From Ethanoligenens harbinense YUAN-3 (lineage in GTDB: Bacteria; Bacillota; Clostridia; Oscillospirales; Ethanoligenentaceae), in the NCBI RefSeq assembly GCF_000178115.2, contig NC_014828.1:372001-436000 (forward strand): 64,000 nucleotides of DNA. The letters run 5' to 3'. Both the position numbers and the translations under genes were made by a program. Below are positions 55,044 to 64,000 of the stretch, in pieces (the first letter of the stretch is position 1; every line of letters starts with the position of its first letter). Under the pieces are notes generated by a model. It was not told the origin of the DNA. It saw only the letters and a list, made by a program, of their open reading frames with translations, and searched no databases.

Positions 55044-57272
55044 TCAGGCAGTCAGCATGGCAAACAGGGCCGCAATCCGGCCCTTTGCCGCCGCGGCTTT
55101 GCGCGGCAGGCCGCGGCAGAACGCTTCCGCCTGCCGACAGCTTTCCGCATCCGTGGTTTCACCGCTGTAGCGCGCCTTCAGATACAGCTCCGTTGTGCCG
55201 GCAAAGCCCGTGATGCCGAGAATTCGTTCCACCTCGCGCGCATAGCGCTGGGGCGTTTCGCTGGGGCCGCAGGGGCGCCCCAGCCGTGCGAAGAACCGCA
55301 GGCAGTAAAGATACAGCGAGATGACCTGCGTGTTCCGCGGTTTCCGCCGTAGCCTGGCAAACCATACGGCGCGCCCGGCCATTCGGCCTGCCAGAGCCAG
55401 CGCGCACAATCCTATTGCTGTCAGCACGATCACCCAGGGAGAAACAGGTCCGCCCGTGGTTTTGCCGTCGGCCGCCTGCCCGGAAGAAGCCGGTGCGGCC
55501 GGTGCGGATGACGCGGCGGAAGACGGGACGGAGAGGGTGGACGGGATGGAGGAAGCAGCTTTGCTGCTCTGCGCGGATTGTACCGATGACGCGCCTACCC
55601 CGGACGCGGAAGGCCCGATGCCGGGCGTGGGGTCCTCGGTTACGTAACCGAGCAGTTGGGTATACACTTCGACCCATGCGTGCGACTGGTTGTTGGTGAC
55701 AATGTGTGTACCGTCTCCGTCTTCGCCCGGAGGGGAAACATATCCCTCCACATAACGGGCGGGATAGCCGGCCGCGCGGAGCAGCACCGTCATGGCGGTG
55801 GCGAAATGGACACAATAGCCCTCGTGTGAACGGAACAGGAAATCGTCCACAAATTCCGATCCGGCGGGCGCGGCGGGTACATCGGTGCGGTAGCGGCAGT
55901 TTTTTGCCAGCCATGCGCGGATAGCGTCCGATGCCTCCAGGGCGTTGCGGCTGTTCTGCGTGAGGGCCTTTGCCAGCGCGAGGGTGCGCTTGGTGACGGA
56001 GGCGGGCAGAGCGGTGTCGGCGGCGTATGCGGCTGTGCTTTCCTGCATCAGCGCGGTGTAGCTGTCGGGGGTGCCGGTGCGCACAGTTTCCAGAAACGGC
56101 TCGGTTCGCTGGTCGTAATCCGCTTCCAGAGAGGCAAAGGCGGTGCTCTGCATGTCGATGTACGGGTATTCCAACGTATAGCTGTTGCCGGTACGCAGTA
56201 TGGATGCGGCCTCATATGATCCGTTTTGGAACAGCGGAAACCGGATGCTGCCGGATTGCCATTGCGTGAACCCGAGCGGCAGGAACAGCGTGCGGTATCC
56301 GCCGCGCAGCAGGTGAACGGTGAGGGTGCGCAGGGATGCGGAAGCACGCTCCGGGAGCGGTTGATATGGACGAAACCGTGCGGAGCCGGAAAGGAAGGCA
56401 GATCCCATCATCGGGTGCAGGGTTTCGAATGAGGAAAAATCGGAGGCGGTCTGTGTTTTGTCCACCGTCCAGGTGCCGTCGCGATAGGTGGTATAGGCGC
56501 GCCCCTTAAGATAAAACGGCGCTATACCGGTGACCGAGAAGATCTGCGTATCGTCCGGATACAGCGGACCGCCGAGCTGCTTGGTGGTGATGTTGTCCGC
56601 AAAGCCGGACAGCCCGCCTTTGAACAGGTCCGCCAAGCCTTTGATTTGCAGGCGCTGCATGTCCTGCACGGCGGGGAGTTGTTCAAGCCCCGCCAATATG
56701 GCGAGCGTGACGAGGAACGCGGCGCCGAGAAAACCGTTCAGCGCGCCCAGGCGCCGCAGGCGATGCCGGGAAGGCGGTAGCTGCATGTCCAGAAAAAGCG
56801 CCGCGCAGAATAGGCAGAAGAGCGCCGTCACGCGGATATCCACGTCATAGCCGCCGGCGGCCAGATAGGTGATGCCGATCAGTCCGCCGGCGGCCCAGAA
56901 AAGGGTGCCGGTGCGTGTACGCACGGCATAAAACCCCAATATGGCGACCGGCATGGCGACAAGGTAAAACAGCCATGGGTAAAGCAGCGTCTGTGGGGAA
57001 GCGAGGATGTCCGTGAGGTGGAAAAGGGCATACAGGATGAGCGCGATGCCGGCGGAGACCCAGGCAAATACGGAGAAATACAGGGATTTCCGGCCGCGTA
57101 CGCACAGGATGAGCGGCAGGAGCACCGCTGTGTCCAGTCCCAGCAGGGGCCACGGGGAGTCGGTAAATGTGTGCGGGATCAAAAATGCCTTGAACAGTTC
57201 ATGCGTGAGTGCGGCCGCCGAACCCAGCAGCAGTGCCATACGGATGAGCCGATCTGCGGTCGCCTGCTTCAT
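55044..57272 (-). CDS. Membrane-bound transglutaminase-like protein (TgpA type)
   Basis: A 742-aa protein. Five or six N-terminal helices fill about 8-240. An extracytoplasmic region holds the transglutaminase core with the triad Cys near 487 (SHEGYCVHFATAM), His near 530 (NNQSHAWVEVY) and Asp near 545 (TEDPTPG). A Ser/Ala-rich linker and one C-terminal helix (VSPWVIVLTAIGLCALALAG) follow, then a basic cytosolic tail with a DUF4129-like end. MoxR-DUF58-transglutaminase is a recurrent operon. Start 57272 overlaps the DUF58 stop as ATGA, with AAGGGAG upstream. Confidence 0.9.
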   Translation of the reverse strand: MKQATADRLIRMALLLGSAAALTHELFKAFLIPHTFTDSPWPLLGLDTAVLLPLILCVRGRKSLYFSVFAWVSAGIALILYALFHLTDILASPQTLLYPWLFYLVAMPVAILGFYAVRTRTGTLFWAAGGLIGITYLAAGGYDVDIRVTALFCLFCAALFLDMQLPPSRHRLRRLGALNGFLGAAFLVTLAILAGLEQLPAVQDMQRLQIKGLADLFKGGLSGFADNITTKQLGGPLYPDDTQIFSVTGIAPFYLKGRAYTTYRDGTWTVDKTQTASDFSSFETLHPMMGSAFLSGSARFRPYQPLPERASASLRTLTVHLLRGGYRTLFLPLGFTQWQSGSIRFPLFQNGSYEAASILRTGNSYTLEYPYIDMQSTAFASLEADYDQRTEPFLETVRTGTPDSYTALMQESTAAYAADTALPASVTKRTLALAKALTQNSRNALEASDAIRAWLAKNCRYRTDVPAAPAGSEFVDDFLFRSHEGYCVHFATAMTVLLRAAGYPARYVEGYVSPPGEDGDGTHIVTNNQSHAWVEVYTQLLGYVTEDPTPGIGPSASGVGASSVQSAQSSKAASSIPSTLSVPSSAASSAPAAPASSGQAADGKTTGGPVSPWVIVLTAIGLCALALAGRMAGRAVWFARLRRKPRNTQVISLYLYCLRFFARLGRPCGPSETPQRYAREVERILGITGFAGTTELYLKARYSGETTDAESCRQAEAFCRGLPRKAAAAKGRIAALFAMLTA

Positions 57273-58453
57273 CCGGGCTCTCCCTTTGTGTCGGCGGCGC
57301 GCGGCGCTCCGTCCTGCACGGTATCCATGGAAAGGACGCGGCAGTTCATACCCGCTTGCACGAGCGGCGTAAGCCGTGCGTCCGTGTCGAATGGCGCAGT
57401 ATCTGTGACCCACAGCAGCGCCGGTTGCGCGCCTGCCTGCCGCCAAGCGAGCAGTTTACGTATCAGCGCATCGGTCAGTCGAGCGGTGCAGAGCAGTATG
57501 CCGTCGGCCTGCGTGCCGGACAGAGCGGTAGGAAGATCGTCCGCAGAGGGATGGTCCGCTGCGGCTGCCCAATGTCTCCCCAGCGCCTCCAGATCCTGTC
57601 TGCCTGCCGGATGGCACAGACGCGGACCGTCCGAGCCTGTGTAAAGGACGGTCACCTCCAACCCGCTCTCCAGCGCGGTGAGCGCCGCGCGCAGCGGTTC
57701 CTCGGCCAGCCGGTCGAATTCCGCGGGTGTACCTGCCTGCGGCGCGAGGTCGGCGGCGATGACCATACCGCGTCGTGTGGATCGTTCATACATGCGGCTC
57801 ATAAAAGCGCCGGTATGGGCGGTCAGTTTCCAGTGGATGCCGTGCAGCGGGTCGCCGGCGGCGTATTGCCGGACACCGTCGTAGTTTCCGGAGGGTATGC
57901 CGGATTGTGAAACGGCGGAGTCCCCCTCCTGCCGGTGGTACGCTGGTGCGCCCGCAGTATCCAGGCGCGGTGCGACTACGGTTTCCAGCGTGGCATGGCC
58001 GTGCATGGAAAAATTGAACAGGCCGCTGATGTCGCGTACCGTGAACCGTTCCAGCCGGATACGGCAGAGCCCCACGTGCGCGCATGCGACAGGCAGCGTG
58101 AACTGCCGCGTTTGCCCGGGTGCGAACGTCAGTGTCTGGGTGAAACGCTGTGCCTCGCAGCCCGGTTGGATGACTTCCGCTGTGACCGTTACGCAGGGCA
58201 AAGGCAGGAGGCTACGGTTTTTCAGCGTGAAAACGCCCTCCGCGGCTGCACCGCGGACCAATGCCCGTCCGCGCAGGCAAACGCTGCACTTCATCCGCAG
58301 AGCGCCCGCCAGTGCGCAGACAGCCGAGCACAGAAGCAGGGAGACGAGCAGGGCGGCGGGAAAAAATCCGCCGATGGGGCGCATGACCAGTGCAGGCAGC
58401 AGGGCGATGGCAACCAGCACGAAAAGCAGCAGGAGTTTGTATGGCAAACGCAT
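57269..58453 (-). CDS. DUF58 domain protein
   Basis: A 394-aa protein with two N-terminal helices (KLLLLFVLVAIALLPALVMR and FFPAALLVSLLLCSAVCALA) and the DUF58 core GVRQYAAGDPLHGIHWKLTA followed by SRMYER, then a von Willebrand-like region. DUF58 proteins are partners of MoxR ATPases, thought to be substrates or adaptors. AGAGGA is 6 nt before the ATG. Thirteen nucleotides separate it from the MoxR gene. Confidence 0.9.
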   Translation of the reverse strand: MRLPYKLLLLFVLVAIALLPALVMRPIGGFFPAALLVSLLLCSAVCALAGALRMKCSVCLRGRALVRGAAAEGVFTLKNRSLLPLPCVTVTAEVIQPGCEAQRFTQTLTFAPGQTRQFTLPVACAHVGLCRIRLERFTVRDISGLFNFSMHGHATLETVVAPRLDTAGAPAYHRQEGDSAVSQSGIPSGNYDGVRQYAAGDPLHGIHWKLTAHTGAFMSRMYERSTRRGMVIAADLAPQAGTPAEFDRLAEEPLRAALTALESGLEVTVLYTGSDGPRLCHPAGRQDLEALGRHWAAAADHPSADDLPTALSGTQADGILLCTARLTDALIRKLLAWRQAGAQPALLWVTDTAPFDTDARLTPLVQAGMNCRVLSMDTVQDGAPRAADTKGEPG

Positions 58454-58465
58454 GGGTATTCCTCT

Positions 58466-59416
58466 TTACGGCCGGCTCTGCACCAGGGAAGGCGCGGGAA
58501 TTCCGGCAAACACCTCGTCCAGCACATCCTGTGTGGTCCGGCCGTCCAGCCGGGCGGCACCGTTCAGACGGATACGGTGGCAAAGCGCATGCGGGGCCAG
58601 CGTGCGCACATCGTCCGGCACAACATACCCGCGCCCGCGAAGCAGCGCGTAAGCGCGCGCCAGTTGCAGGAGCGCCAGGGAGCCGCGCGGGCTCACGCCC
58701 AGCTCCACGCCCGGATGCCGACGGGTGCCGGTGATGACGGCGACGATATAACGGGCCACGCTCTCGTCCACCCGCACCTGTTCCGCCGTTTTGCGGATGC
58801 GCAGAAGGTCCGCCGCGGTGGCAACGGGGGTTAGACGCGTTTTCTGTCCTTTGCCGTCCAGCAGAATGCGCACTTCTTCCTCAAAAGCGGGGTAGCCCAG
58901 TGAGATGCGGATGAGGAAACGGTCGATCTGGGCCTCCGGCAGCGGATATGTGCCGACGAATTCGATGGGGTTCTGGGTGGCCAACACCATGAAAGGCTGC
59001 GGGAGCGGGTAGGTCTGGGAATCGACGGTGACCTGGTTTTCCTCCATGATCTCCAACAGGCCCGCCTGTGTTTTGGGCGAGGCGCGGTTGATCTCGTCCG
59101 CCAGTACGAAATGGCTGATGACCGGGCCGGGCCGGAACGTGAAGACACCGTCTTTGGGGTTGAAAACGGAAAAGCCGGTGATGTCCGACGGGAGAATGTC
59201 GGGCGTGAACTGGATACGCCGGAAGTCGCAGTCCACCGATGCGGCCAGCGCCGAGGCAAGCCGCGTTTTTCCCACGCCCGGGATATCCTCCAGCAGCACA
59301 TGGCCCCCGCAGGCAAGGGCGGTCACCACCAGTTCGATGGCATCCCGTTTGCCGACGATGACGTTCTCCACATTTTCGATGATGCGCTCTAAAATACGTT
59401 GGGCGTCCTCCATCAT
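58466..59416 (-). CDS. MoxR-family AAA+ ATPase
   Basis: About 316 aa. Walker A LLEDIPGVGKTRLA, Walker B HFVLADEINRASPKTQAGLL, sensor 1 MVLATQNPIEFVGTYPLPEA and the C-terminal lid with GVSPRGSLALLQLARAYALL are classic MoxR. It is a chaperone-like ATPase paired with the downstream DUF58 protein. ATG 59416 and 59413 are adjacent; GGAGG is 4 and 7 nt away, so 59413 is also likely. The frame's TTG-type extension to 59482 has no support. Confidence 0.93.
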   Translation of the reverse strand: MMEDAQRILERIIENVENVIVGKRDAIELVVTALACGGHVLLEDIPGVGKTRLASALAASVDCDFRRIQFTPDILPSDITGFSVFNPKDGVFTFRPGPVISHFVLADEINRASPKTQAGLLEIMEENQVTVDSQTYPLPQPFMVLATQNPIEFVGTYPLPEAQIDRFLIRISLGYPAFEEEVRILLDGKGQKTRLTPVATAADLLRIRKTAEQVRVDESVARYIVAVITGTRRHPGVELGVSPRGSLALLQLARAYALLRGRGYVVPDDVRTLAPHALCHRIRLNGAARLDGRTTQDVLDEVFAGIPAPSLVQSRP

Positions 59417-59600
59417 TTTTCCTCCAGCAGCCGCGTCTGTTCCCTGAAAAGAGGATGGACAGCACAGACGCACCTCATACATACGACGGCGAAAACAGGC
59501 ACAAACCGGGCAAAAGATCGTACAAATTGTAGAATAAACTCATAATATTACAAAAAGCGGCGGCAGGCGCACGGTCTGTCGATGATCTGATGCGGAAAAC

Positions 59601-60985: not shown

Positions 60986-61023
60986 AAAGGGCTGCCGGAA
61001 ACATATCTTTCCGGCAGCCCTTT
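60986..61023. terminator. Terminator after the radical SAM gene
   Basis: AAAGGGCTGCCGGAAA (60986-61001) and TTTCCGGCAGCCCTTT (61008-61023) form a perfect 16-bp stem with loop CATATC. On the minus strand it ends in CCCTTTG and lies 14 nt after the radical SAM stop. Confidence 0.85.
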
Positions 61024-61037
61024 TGCAACAGGTATCG

Positions 61038-62417
61038 TTACGCGTTCACGCGGTCACGCACATTCTCTTTGTTTTTGGGATCAACTTTCCAGAGATCATC
61101 GGCGGTTTCCGCCCAAAGTTCGGCCTGTTCCTTGGTTTTGGAGGTCAGCACATCCACATCTTCGGGGCTGAGGGCCTCGGTGGAATGCGCGCCGGTCGCT
61201 TTGACCATACCGGCCAGCGCTTCGGGATTATCCAGCAGCGGGCAGGGGCGCAGCATGTTTTTGTTGAACGGCTGGCCTTTGTGGTAGGCCATGAACAGCG
61301 GGGATTTCAGAATCTCCATCACGGATTTCTCGCGGATATTGTAGTTGGAGTAATGAATGAACGCGCAGGGTTCCGCGTCGCCCGCGGAGTTGATGTGGAA
61401 GTAGCGGCGGCCTGCGGCGATGCAGCCGTCCACATAGGCGCCGTCGTTCCAGAAATCCAGCACGAAGATCGGCTTGGTGGCCCGGATCTCGTTGACGCGT
61501 TTGTACATATGTGCGCGCTGTTCCGGGGTGGCGAGCAACTCCTTGTGCGCGTCCGCGCCCACCGGCATATAGGTGAAATACCAGCCGAAGAGCACACCTT
61601 TTTCAATCATGAAATCGACGAACTCGTCGCTGCCGACGTAATCGGTGTTTTTGCTGTGGTAGCAGACGGACATGCCAAACGCCAGATTGCGTGCATGCAG
61701 GATGTCCATGGCGCGGATGACGCTCTGATAAACGCCCTTGCCGCGGCGCATGTCGGTGGCTTCCTCGAAGCCCTCGATGCTGATGATCGGCACGAAATTG
61801 CCCAGGCGTTCCATTTCGGAGGCGAATTCCTCGTCAATGAGGGTGCCGTTGGTGAAGGCGGCAAAGAAACAGTCGCTGTGTTTTTCACATAAGCGCAGGA
61901 TGTCTTTTTTGCGCACCAGCGGTTCGCCGCCGGAGAAGACGTAGAAATAGATGCTGAGCTTTTTTCCCTGCTCAATGACGTTGTCCAGCTCTTCAAACGT
62001 CAGGTTGTTCTGCTTGGCATATTCCGCCGCCCAGCAGCCGGTGCATTTGAGGTTGCAGGCACTGGTAGGATCCATGAGAATGGTCCATGGGATGTTGCAG
62101 TCCAGCTTCTCAGCCATTTTCTGCTGTTCGGTGAAGCCGATGATGCTGGCGTTGACCAGAAAGTTGGTGGCAAACTTTTTGCGCTGGTTGGGATTGAGCT
62201 TGGTCAGATAGTTGATGAGATATCCGCGCCACGGGCTGCTCTCGTCATGCCACATATCGTCGAACTGCTTGATGATGTTCTGATAGAACGGGTCGCGGCC
62301 CTTCACGAGTACTTTCGCGATGCTGATGAGGCGGTCGAAGTGCTTCTCCGGCTCATGCTCCAGATATTTCACGGCTTCTGTTACCAACAACGACATCGCT
62401 TGCTTCTTGATATCCAT
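61038..62417 (-). CDS. Radical SAM protein with SPASM-like C-terminus
   Basis: A 459-aa protein. A helical N-terminal domain (1 to about 110, MDIKKQAMSLLVTEAVKYLE) precedes the cluster motif CNLKCTGC (Cys121, Cys125, Cys128). SAM-binding FSGGEPLVRK follows, then conserved IISIEGFEEATDMRRGKGVY. A C-terminal part with DGCIAAGRRYFHINSAGDAE, PCAFIHYSN and LRPCPLLDNPEA offers cysteines for an auxiliary cluster. The family is common in anaerobic Firmicutes but I know no established reaction. GGGGGAG is 8 nt before ATG 62417; the frame opens 195 nt earlier without support. It lies 52 nt downstream of the ChrB-like gene. Confidence 0.88.
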   Translation of the reverse strand: MDIKKQAMSLLVTEAVKYLEHEPEKHFDRLISIAKVLVKGRDPFYQNIIKQFDDMWHDESSPWRGYLINYLTKLNPNQRKKFATNFLVNASIIGFTEQQKMAEKLDCNIPWTILMDPTSACNLKCTGCWAAEYAKQNNLTFEELDNVIEQGKKLSIYFYVFSGGEPLVRKKDILRLCEKHSDCFFAAFTNGTLIDEEFASEMERLGNFVPIISIEGFEEATDMRRGKGVYQSVIRAMDILHARNLAFGMSVCYHSKNTDYVGSDEFVDFMIEKGVLFGWYFTYMPVGADAHKELLATPEQRAHMYKRVNEIRATKPIFVLDFWNDGAYVDGCIAAGRRYFHINSAGDAEPCAFIHYSNYNIREKSVMEILKSPLFMAYHKGQPFNKNMLRPCPLLDNPEALAGMVKATGAHSTEALSPEDVDVLTSKTKEQAELWAETADDLWKVDPKNKENVRDRVNA

Positions 62418-62469
62418 AACTGAACTCCCCCATGACCTGTTACTTCTTGTATCAAAAACCCGCACGGGG

Positions 62470-63003
62470 CTATTTTGCCAGATGATAACCGTGCATATGG
62501 TTTTCAATTTTAAGCAGCAAATTCTCCACGGCACGCCCGAGGCTCTGGTCGAGCGGCGCCTGAAAAAAACCGTGCCGCTTGAATGCCTCGTAATGGTTGC
62601 GCGCCTTTTCAAAAAAACCGGCGTCCTGCCGTTTTCGGATGTAGCCGGCCGGCTGCGGATGCTCTACTTCTTTGAGAAAATCCCGCAGAGCATTCGAAAT
62701 TTCCTGGCAGGCCAGACGCACATTGTCGTTAAATTGCCCAACCAGTTTTTCCTCATCCTGCCTGTCGATAAAATTAAACCGCAGCACCGATGCGTCGCCG
62801 CCGAACAGATGGATCTCCGCCCGCAGATTTTGCAGATAGGTATTGTTCCACATATTCATGGGCAACACGGCCAGCCCCTGCTGGTAGCAGATGGCGCCTG
62901 CCTGTTTCAGTTTTCGCCAGACATACACACGGTATTTGGACGGGTGCGATGGCAGTTTGTAGACCAACGCGGCCCAGTCCGCCGTGCCACTTTCATCACT
63001 CAA
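62470..63003 (-). CDS. ChrB N-terminal-like (PaaX-like) protein, putative regulator
   Basis: A 177-aa protein starting at TTG 63003, the only possible start because an in-frame TGA lies three codons upstream. ADWAALVYKLPSHPSKYRVY, VWRKLKQAGAICYQQGLAVL and PMNMWNNTYLQNLRAEIHLF match the N-terminal domain of chromate-resistance regulator ChrB. The C-terminal catalytic-type domain of full ChrB is absent; instead there is a helical tail with RLACQEISNALRDFLKE. No chrA transporter gene is present. It is transcribed ahead of the radical SAM gene from a consensus promoter with paired operators, suggesting autoregulation. Confidence 0.75.
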   Translation of the reverse strand: MSDESGTADWAALVYKLPSHPSKYRVYVWRKLKQAGAICYQQGLAVLPMNMWNNTYLQNLRAEIHLFGGDASVLRFNFIDRQDEEKLVGQFNDNVRLACQEISNALRDFLKEVEHPQPAGYIRKRQDAGFFEKARNHYEAFKRHGFFQAPLDQSLGRAVENLLLKIENHMHGYHLAK

Positions 63004-63055
63004 GGTAATTCACGGCTTTCCGTCCCTTCCAAGAAAGTGCCAACCCGCATTCCGA

Positions 63056-63071
63056 TGTAACAGACGCTACA
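63056..63071. promoter_or_regulatory. Second operator-like palindrome (downstream site)
   Basis: TGTAAC-AGAC-GCTACA, a 16-bp inverted repeat with one mismatch. It has the same arm sequence and length as the promoter-overlapping site 32 bp away, about three helical turns. Confidence 0.5.
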
Positions 63072-63085
63072 TTTCTCGCACATTT

Positions 63086-63114
63086 ATTGTAATACCTGTT
63101 ACAAGTGTTGTCAA
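63086..63114 (-). promoter_or_regulatory. Consensus promoter of the ChrB-like/radical SAM operon
   Basis: Minus strand: TTGACA (63109-63114), 17-nt spacer, TACAAT (63086-63091), the closest match to consensus in the window. Transcription would start near 63080, giving a leader of about 75 nt. Confidence 0.85.
63087..63104. promoter_or_regulatory. Operator-like palindrome overlapping the promoter
   Basis: TTGTAA-TACCTG-TTACAA, perfect 6-bp arms, covering the -10 box and adjacent spacer. A bound protein would block RNA polymerase. Confidence 0.6.
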
Positions 63115-63242
63115 CGTGGAGGAACGGTCGAGTTTTCAAAAGAACGACAAAGATGGTTTGACAAAATATGAATATTTTATGAATGTTGTTGGATGGATTA
63201 CAAGAATAAACGATGGACGAACCATCCGAATGCAAAAATGAA

Positions 63243-63274
63243 CGCCCGCCCGAGCACAAAGCGCCGGGCGGGCG
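63243..63274 (-). terminator. Terminator of typA
   Basis: CGCCCGCCCG (63243-63252) and CGGGCGGGCG (63265-63274) form a 10-bp stem; on the minus strand TTCATTTTTGC follows. It lies 15 nt after the typA stop. Confidence 0.75.
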
Positions 63275-63288
63275 TAAAACCGATGGTG

Positions 63289-64000
63289 TTATGATTTTTT
63301 GCTTCCGGCGCGTGCACGCTGGTTGTGGTCGAGAATGGCCTTGCGGATGCGGATGCTTTTCGGTGTGACCTCAAGCAGTTCGTCCGGCGCAAGGAATTCC
63401 AGCGATTCCTCCAGACTCATGGTGTGGGGCGGCACCAGGCGAAGCGCCTCGTCGCTGCCGGAGGAGCGCATGTTGGAAACGTGCTTGCGTTTGCAGACGT
63501 TGACGACCAGATCTTCGCTCTTGGGCGAATAGCCAACGACCATGCCCGCGTAAACCGGCGTGGCCGGGCCGATGAACAGCGTGCCGCGCTCCTGCGCGTT
63601 ATACAGACCGTAGGTGATGGATTCACCGGTCTCGAACGCGACGAGGGAGCCGTAGTTGCGGCCCGGAATCTCGCCCTTATAGGGCTCGTAGCCATAGAAC
63701 ACCGAGTTGAGAATGCCCTCACCCTTGGTATCGGTGAGAAACTCGCTGCGGTAGCCGAACAGACCGCGCGAAGGAATCAGGAATTCCACGCGCATGCGGT
63801 TGCCCATCGGCTCCATGTGCTGAAGTTCGCCTTTGCGCACGCCCATTTTTTCCATGACCGAGCCGAGCGCATTCTCAGGCACGTCAATGACCAGCTCCTC
63901 AATCGGCTCCAGTTTCTGGCCCTCTTCTTCTTTAAAAAGAACCTGCGGCGTGCTCACCTGAAACTCATACCCCTCGCGGCGCATGGTCTCAATGAGAATG
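63289..64000 (-). CDS. typA: TypA/BipA ribosome-associated GTPase, C-terminal part (5' end outside window)
   Basis: The last 236 or so residues of a translational GTPase of about 610 aa; the start lies beyond position 64000. The visible part includes IETMRREGYEFQVSTPQVLF, the EF-G domain-V-like region VPENALGSVMEKMGVRKGEL and the TypA-specific C-terminal domain LFIGPATPVYAGMVVGYSPK, NVCKRKHVSNMRSSGSDEAL and EFLAPDELLEVTPKSIRIRK. TypA aids 50S assembly and growth at low temperature or under stress. A terminator follows. Confidence 0.96.
   Translation of the reverse strand, partial: ILIETMRREGYEFQVSTPQVLFKEEEGQKLEPIEELVIDVPENALGSVMEKMGVRKGELQHMEPMGNRMRVEFLIPSRGLFGYRSEFLTDTKGEGILNSVFYGYEPYKGEIPGRNYGSLVAFETGESITYGLYNAQERGTLFIGPATPVYAGMVVGYSPKSEDLVVNVCKRKHVSNMRSSGSDEALRLVPPHTMSLEESLEFLAPDELLEVTPKSIRIRKAILDHNQRARAGSKKS

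Follow-up and report, generated by a model that had tools for sequence, protein, structure and literature searches.

The 64,000-nucleotide stretch of the Ethanoligenens harbinense YUAN-3 genome analysed here (the window) probably carries a self-regulated two-gene operon, in which a short ChrB_N protein acts as an autorepressor on paired palindromes and controls a radical SAM enzyme; we put the probability of this reading at roughly 80%. In the mechanism that we propose, the ChrB_N protein would be a dimeric DNA-binding repressor of Cas2-like fold, sitting on TGTAAC-N4-GTTACA at two places, first across the promoter spacer and the -10 hexamer and again three helical turns downstream. The bound repressor would block RNA polymerase until a signal frees it, and its release would induce both the ChrB_N gene and the co-transcribed enzyme. 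In the enzyme, the CxxxCxxC cluster probably makes a 5'-deoxyadenosyl radical, and an auxiliary cluster in the SPASM region would probably be used for electron transfer. We infer direct binding, dimerisation, induction and repression in preference to activation; the ChrB_N protein might instead be an activator of the operon. A putative repressible promoter with what looks like a dedicated repressor would offer a way to find what induces this uncharacterised family of radical SAM enzymes, and perhaps what it acts on.

Anatomy of the operon and its operators

The open reading frame listing of the window gives, along the minus strand, the end of typA/bipA, the promoter, a 177-aa ORF and a 459-aa ORF. 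The features are as follows.

63289..63999, minus strand: end of typA/bipA, with BipA_C and EFG_C Pfam matches
63109..63114, minus strand: -35 hexamer TTGACA, kept in G001 and G003
63088..63103, minus strand: operator 1, TGTAACAGGTATTACA, within the promoter spacer and extending into the -10; kept in three genomes
63086..63091, minus strand: -10 hexamer TACAAT, from the promoter scan and three-genome upstream alignment
63056..63071, minus strand: operator 2, TGTAGCGTCTGTTACA, just past the predicted transcription start
62470..63003, minus strand: short ChrB_N gene, 177 aa, TTG start; ChrB_N match of 37.3 bits
61038..62417, minus strand: radical SAM/SPASM enzyme gene, 459 aa, from Pfam, a 24-sequence alignment, and a model with fold search
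60986..61023, minus strand: perfect 16-bp hairpin 3' of the enzyme gene with a short T run, a probable terminator

An earlier account of this DNA, made from the letters without database searches (the sequence-only reading), had described these two reading frames, 52 nt apart, as one operon under a TTGACA-N17-TACAAT promoter. The ORF listing confirms the two frames and their spacing, and the operon is borne out by the common promoter, the 52-nt gap and the shared strand. The promoter matches the consensus at 11 of 12 positions and is kept in two relatives with the same spacer length, and the gaps between the two genes are short in relatives too. Orthologues of the ChrB_N gene begin in the alignment at about the same point as its TTG start, with GTG and ATG. 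The typA gene, found upstream in the same order in L101 and L099, is a conserved upstream neighbour and lies outside the two-gene unit. The strong terminator of the sequence-only reading stands as far as the hairpin is concerned, which is perfect over 16 bp (-33.5 kcal/mol, z -7.6) and was found only after the second gene of the unit; its T run is short, and for that reason the terminator consensus scan did not list it. No RiPP precursor peptide was seen; an 87-aa ORF (62996-63259) overlaps the promoter. Elsewhere in the window (55044-59482), MoxR-type ATPase, DUF58-like and transglutaminase-like genes stand in a row and look ordinary, judged by sequence only.

The 16-bp palindrome TGTAAC-N4-GTTACA, which the sequence-only reading had not described, is present twice in the promoter, with operator 2 sitting 32 bp, or about three helical turns, downstream of operator 1. 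In an upstream alignment of the three paired operons (the window's and those of G001 and G003), the -35, the -10 and both palindromes are kept while most other intergenic DNA has diverged, and the G003 operator is a perfect palindrome, TGTAACAAGTGTTACA. The palindrome derived from these three operons was then tested on 40 other non-redundant ChrB_N genes, and 27 of them carry it, perfect or with a single mismatch, in the roughly 150 bp before the gene. Markov-shuffled upstream regions gave an expectation of 0.005 genes with a site and a maximum of 1 in 200 simulations, the reversed-pattern control was found at 2 of the 40, and the upstream regions of 89 radical SAM genes that have no ChrB yielded no site. 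Among 88 other genes of the ChrB loci, nine have a site; all nine are direct neighbours of ChrB, most of them divergent from the ChrB gene by the listed coordinates, and they are plausible targets. Sites are often paired in other ChrB_N loci as well, most at a spacing of 28-37 bp. Short ChrB genes of Agrobacterium and Rhizobium are preceded by perfect sites, and a Deinococcus gene by a site with one mismatch.

Two results from this survey count against an autorepressor: 11 of the 40 test genes have no site at up to two mismatches upstream of their own start, and the palindrome was not found at the full-length, classical ChrB genes that accompany chrA on plasmids of Proteobacteria. L133 and L137 have no site before the ChrB gene but have one before the neighbouring gene, and some other test genes without a site have one at a different start, so that starts may be misjudged. 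The operator of ChrB from O. tritici is a different inverted repeat, likewise placed over the -10 (PMC3817168). As exact matches to the palindrome occur in the window's genome only at the two promoter sites, ChrB_N would seem to serve this operon alone. A wider regulon was considered and rejected, since the other one-mismatch sites of the genome are no commoner than those of the reversed control and several lie in coding sequence. Our literature search found no published TGTAAC-N4-GTTACA operator for ChrB, which does not prove its absence. The new finding is the conserved operator: it links short ChrB_N proteins to a putative repressor mechanism, gives a direct and cheap test for this class of regulators, present in 35 of 299 sampled genomes of the phylum, and opens both the regulator and the enzyme to experiment.

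The short ChrB_N protein and its relatives

Profile searches agree with the sequence-only reading that the small protein is ChrB_N-like, with 37.3 bits against ChrB_N (PF20229; Pfam cut-off 23) and a match to PaaX_M that stays below the Pfam cut-off. Pfam gave no ChrB_C (PF09828) match in the 177-aa protein, and a genome-wide search found no second ChrB_N gene in the window's genome. The AlphaFold2 model, built on 25 homologues (mean pLDDT 82), has a predicted beta-alpha-beta-beta-alpha-beta order followed by long helices, with no winged helix. Foldseek ranked PaaX first (PDB 8a39) and many Cas2 proteins next; none of the matches is strong (E 0.002 and weaker), but their pattern is consistent, and the ranking fits Pfam's Cas2-like description of PaaX_M.

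Two arginines, R25 and R30, are invariant across the 25 homologues and align with R18 and R23 of plasmid-borne classical ChrB proteins beside chrA, the O. tritici sequence itself not being part of the alignment. In O. tritici 5bvl1, ChrB is a chromate-responsive repressor of its own promoter, and R18A or R23A abolishes repression and leads to constitutive expression, which the authors read as loss of DNA binding (PMC3817168). We infer that it is the ChrB_N domain that recognises the palindrome. In the same study neither half of ChrB regulated alone, the N-terminal half included (PMC3817168), and as the window's protein has no ChrB_C, this too counts against an autorepressor. Short ChrB_N proteins apparently manage without ChrB_C.

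A chromate function of the unit was rejected, with neither ChrB_C nor ChrA present. The host genome is complete as a single 3.0-Mb contig, and a profile search for the chromate transporter family PF02417 (ChrA), positive in 9 of 14 known genomes used as a control, found none anywhere in it, so that the missing transporter of the sequence-only reading is missing from the genome as a whole. ChrB_N without ChrB_C or ChrA is ordinary, and in this phylum it is common without an adjacent ChrA. The closest relatives of the window's ChrB_N protein were found in 11 of 391 genomes of the class. Ten ChrB_N neighbours were scanned, comprising seven MFS transporters, two P-type ATPases and one separate ChrB_C gene. 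On plasmids, the genes that follow a short ChrB_N gene include one of the endonuclease/exonuclease/phosphatase family, one for a cation transporter and mcr-5, and full-length ChrB genes are followed by chrA. A tentative generalisation, which we think has a minority chance of being right, is that short ChrB_N proteins are widespread one-domain repressors whose Cas2-like ferredoxin fold reads the palindrome in place of a winged helix, the inducer in the present operon being the product or substrate of the enzyme.

Apparently split ChrB proteins, encoded as separate ChrB_N and ChrB_C genes, were observed at L113 (1498-2366), L114 (1453-2369) and L115 (926-1863), with a perfect palindrome at or near the ChrB_N start and ChrB_C confirmed by Pfam in L113 only. 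On the Aeromonas veronii plasmid AP021941.1 (L171), the short ChrB_N gene at 1986-2528 is followed directly by mcr-5, the gene for a lipid A phosphoethanolamine transferase, and is itself preceded by a palindrome with two mismatches. The ChrB_N gene beside mcr-5 has been called a chromate regulator (PMC13373230); it may control the operon that it leads, rather than chromate. ChrB_N proteins are annotated as chromate resistance, though they are mostly followed by genes unrelated to chromate, and we advise caution with this label for such genes, the copy beside mcr-5 included.

The radical SAM/SPASM enzyme and its regulator slot

The 459-aa protein is, as the sequence-only reading had it, a radical SAM enzyme, here with a SPASM region (Radical_SAM, PF04055, 69 bits; SPASM, PF13186, 25.3 bits against a cut-off of 21.5). 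The CxxxCxxC motif of the SAM cluster (C121/C125/C128) is invariant in an alignment of 24 homologues. The cysteine-rich C-terminus noticed in that reading comes down to three further invariant cysteines in the auxiliary region, C332, C351 and C392, and no more than these, fewer than in the full seven-Cys SPASM motif. No NCBIfam model is matched at its cut-off; 68 score weakly, and among the matches listed all are far below. With the enzyme model (pLDDT 86), the fold search placed SuiB, SkfB, anSME and ChlB best, viperins next and the archaeal tetraether synthase after them.

It is conceivable, though clearly less likely than not, that the enzyme is a SPASM-class maturase of peptides or proteins, of the sactipeptide, RiPP or sulfatase-maturase type. 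The four best structural matches argue for this, and SkfB is also the best PDB profile match. No precursor peptide, peptidase or exporter gene was seen in the operon or among the recurrent neighbours, and the low-scoring NCBIfam models include the maturase models, which argues against it. The bacterial membrane-spanning-lipid synthase, Mss, is also a radical SAM enzyme, and we regard it as rather unlikely that the window's enzyme is an Mss-like synthase joining lipid tails in an operon that answers membrane stress. Enzyme neighbours elsewhere include TetR and HD-domain proteins, CmpB and DUF308 membrane proteins, MATE-like transporters and tandem enzyme copies (the last two labels read from sequence), and the membrane proteins among them hint at a membrane link of the enzyme. 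The lipid reading is further favoured by the archaeal tetraether synthase (Tes/GDGT-MAS) among the structural matches and by the presence of DUF2229 (PlsA/Ger-like) proteins in the genome, and the enzyme is found in anaerobic Bacillota and Spirochaetota, the lineages from which Mss has been reported too (PMC13274423, PMC11868695). However, the tetraether synthase (VIA Z 18, profile E 9e-4) ranks lower than SuiB, SkfB and anSME in the fold comparison (Z about 24 for these three) and lower than SkfB in the profile search, and DUF2229, found in all 8 enzyme-bearing relatives, is also found in 20 of 32 without the enzyme, a link that is too weak.

Whether the two genes stay adjacent, a survey suggested in the sequence-only reading, depends on where one looks. 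ChrB_N and the enzyme are adjacent in three of four genomes of the window's family, covering two of its three genera, with typA upstream: G001, of the same genus, has the order typA, ChrB_N, enzyme (enzyme 86% and ChrB_N 55% identical), and so does G003, of another genus (63% and 30%). In the fourth, G002, the enzyme is preceded in the ChrB slot by a CmpB-type membrane protein and an HD-domain protein (L100), and no ChrB_N was found in this 60% complete genome. Outside the family, an adjacent ChrB_N was found in none of about 90 enzyme homologues. Of 92 homologues, 31 have a TetR-type gene immediately upstream in the same orientation, and in 48 of 94 a TetR relative is encoded no more than four genes away. 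In the maximum-likelihood tree the family's four enzymes form one clade with full support, the ChrB-linked enzymes falling in one clade at 100/100, and the genome's second copy falls in another clade. This second copy (G000:C1:2576232-2577587; L002; 61% identity) has neither ChrB nor TetR and adjoins an mnmA-like gene, so named from its sequence. As no ChrB is adjacent in some 90 homologues and TetR often stands there instead, the ChrB_N protein appears to be a replacement, a modular repressor that the enzyme acquired in one lineage. The simplest reading of these sequences would be that the regulator slot was refilled in that lineage, with ChrB_N where many relatives have TetR. The operon is a lineage-specific wiring of two modules, each of them widespread.

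The proposal of the sequence-only reading, an undescribed sensor-enzyme pair, thus survives as a regulator-enzyme operon and not as a widespread sensor-enzyme system. We found no papers linking ChrB and radical SAM in a literature search. A true pair, in which ChrB_N senses the substrate or product of the enzyme and feeds back on its expression, is in our view improbable: the adjacency within the family, with typA upstream, and the only exact operator pair of the genome at this very operon, with its appearance of a dedicated regulator, speak for it, but the enzyme family occurs elsewhere without ChrB and often with TetR, and ChrB_N elsewhere precedes MFS or P-type ATPase genes. A chance pairing, with the small gene having no part in regulating the enzyme, is very unlikely, for although adjacency is confined to one small family and G002 has no ChrB gene at this place, both genes share a strand and a promoter with conserved operators, a 52-nt gap separates them, and the hairpin comes only after the second.

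Several further observations concern the distribution of the enzyme. CmpB-type (PF06541) and/or HD-domain genes recur beside it in Clostridia and Spirochaetota (L100, 374-1631; L078, 11960-13144; L035, 611-1099), and in five Spirochaetota-type loci (L041, L042, L045, L061, L065) a patatin-like phospholipase gene, recognised by sequence motif only, lies 2-4 genes upstream. A full-length relative with 36% identity is carried by a conjugative IncF plasmid, pEA5_1 of Escherichia albertii (L147, 2254-3633), where it is annotated only as a radical SAM protein. The enzyme copies on two MAG contigs labelled as methanogenic archaea (L045, L081) cluster closely with those of Spirochaetota and probably reflect binning contamination.

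Comparison with known systems

ChrB of O. tritici 5bvl1 resembles the window's protein in its ChrB_N domain, in R18/R23, which correspond to R25/R30 here, in an operator over the -10 and in leading its own operon. It differs in having the sensing ChrB_C (the region of R180, R187 and H229), which the window's protein lacks, and in its palindrome, as against the double TGTAAC-N4-GTTACA of the window, whose genome has no chrA. Measured against a classical ChrB chromate regulator, the window's protein thus has the arginine pair and lacks both ChrB_C and a link to chrA. The central Cas2-like domain of PaaX, the phenylacetyl-CoA repressor (PDB 8a39), is the best structural match to the window's protein; PaaX adds an N-terminal winged helix and a C-terminal domain, both of which are absent here, and PaaX_M remains below cut-off. 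SuiB, SkfB and anSMEcpe have the core barrel and auxiliary-cluster region in common with the window's enzyme (VIA Z about 24), whereas identity is 16-20%, the N-terminal helical domain of about 105 residues is different, and, in contrast to these three, no peptide substrate gene was seen near the window's enzyme. TetR-type regulators have a fold unrelated to ChrB_N and their loci are without TGTAAC-N4-GTTACA sites, yet they sit, as in L012 of Clostridium ultunense, where ChrB_N sits here, immediately before a gene of this enzyme family.
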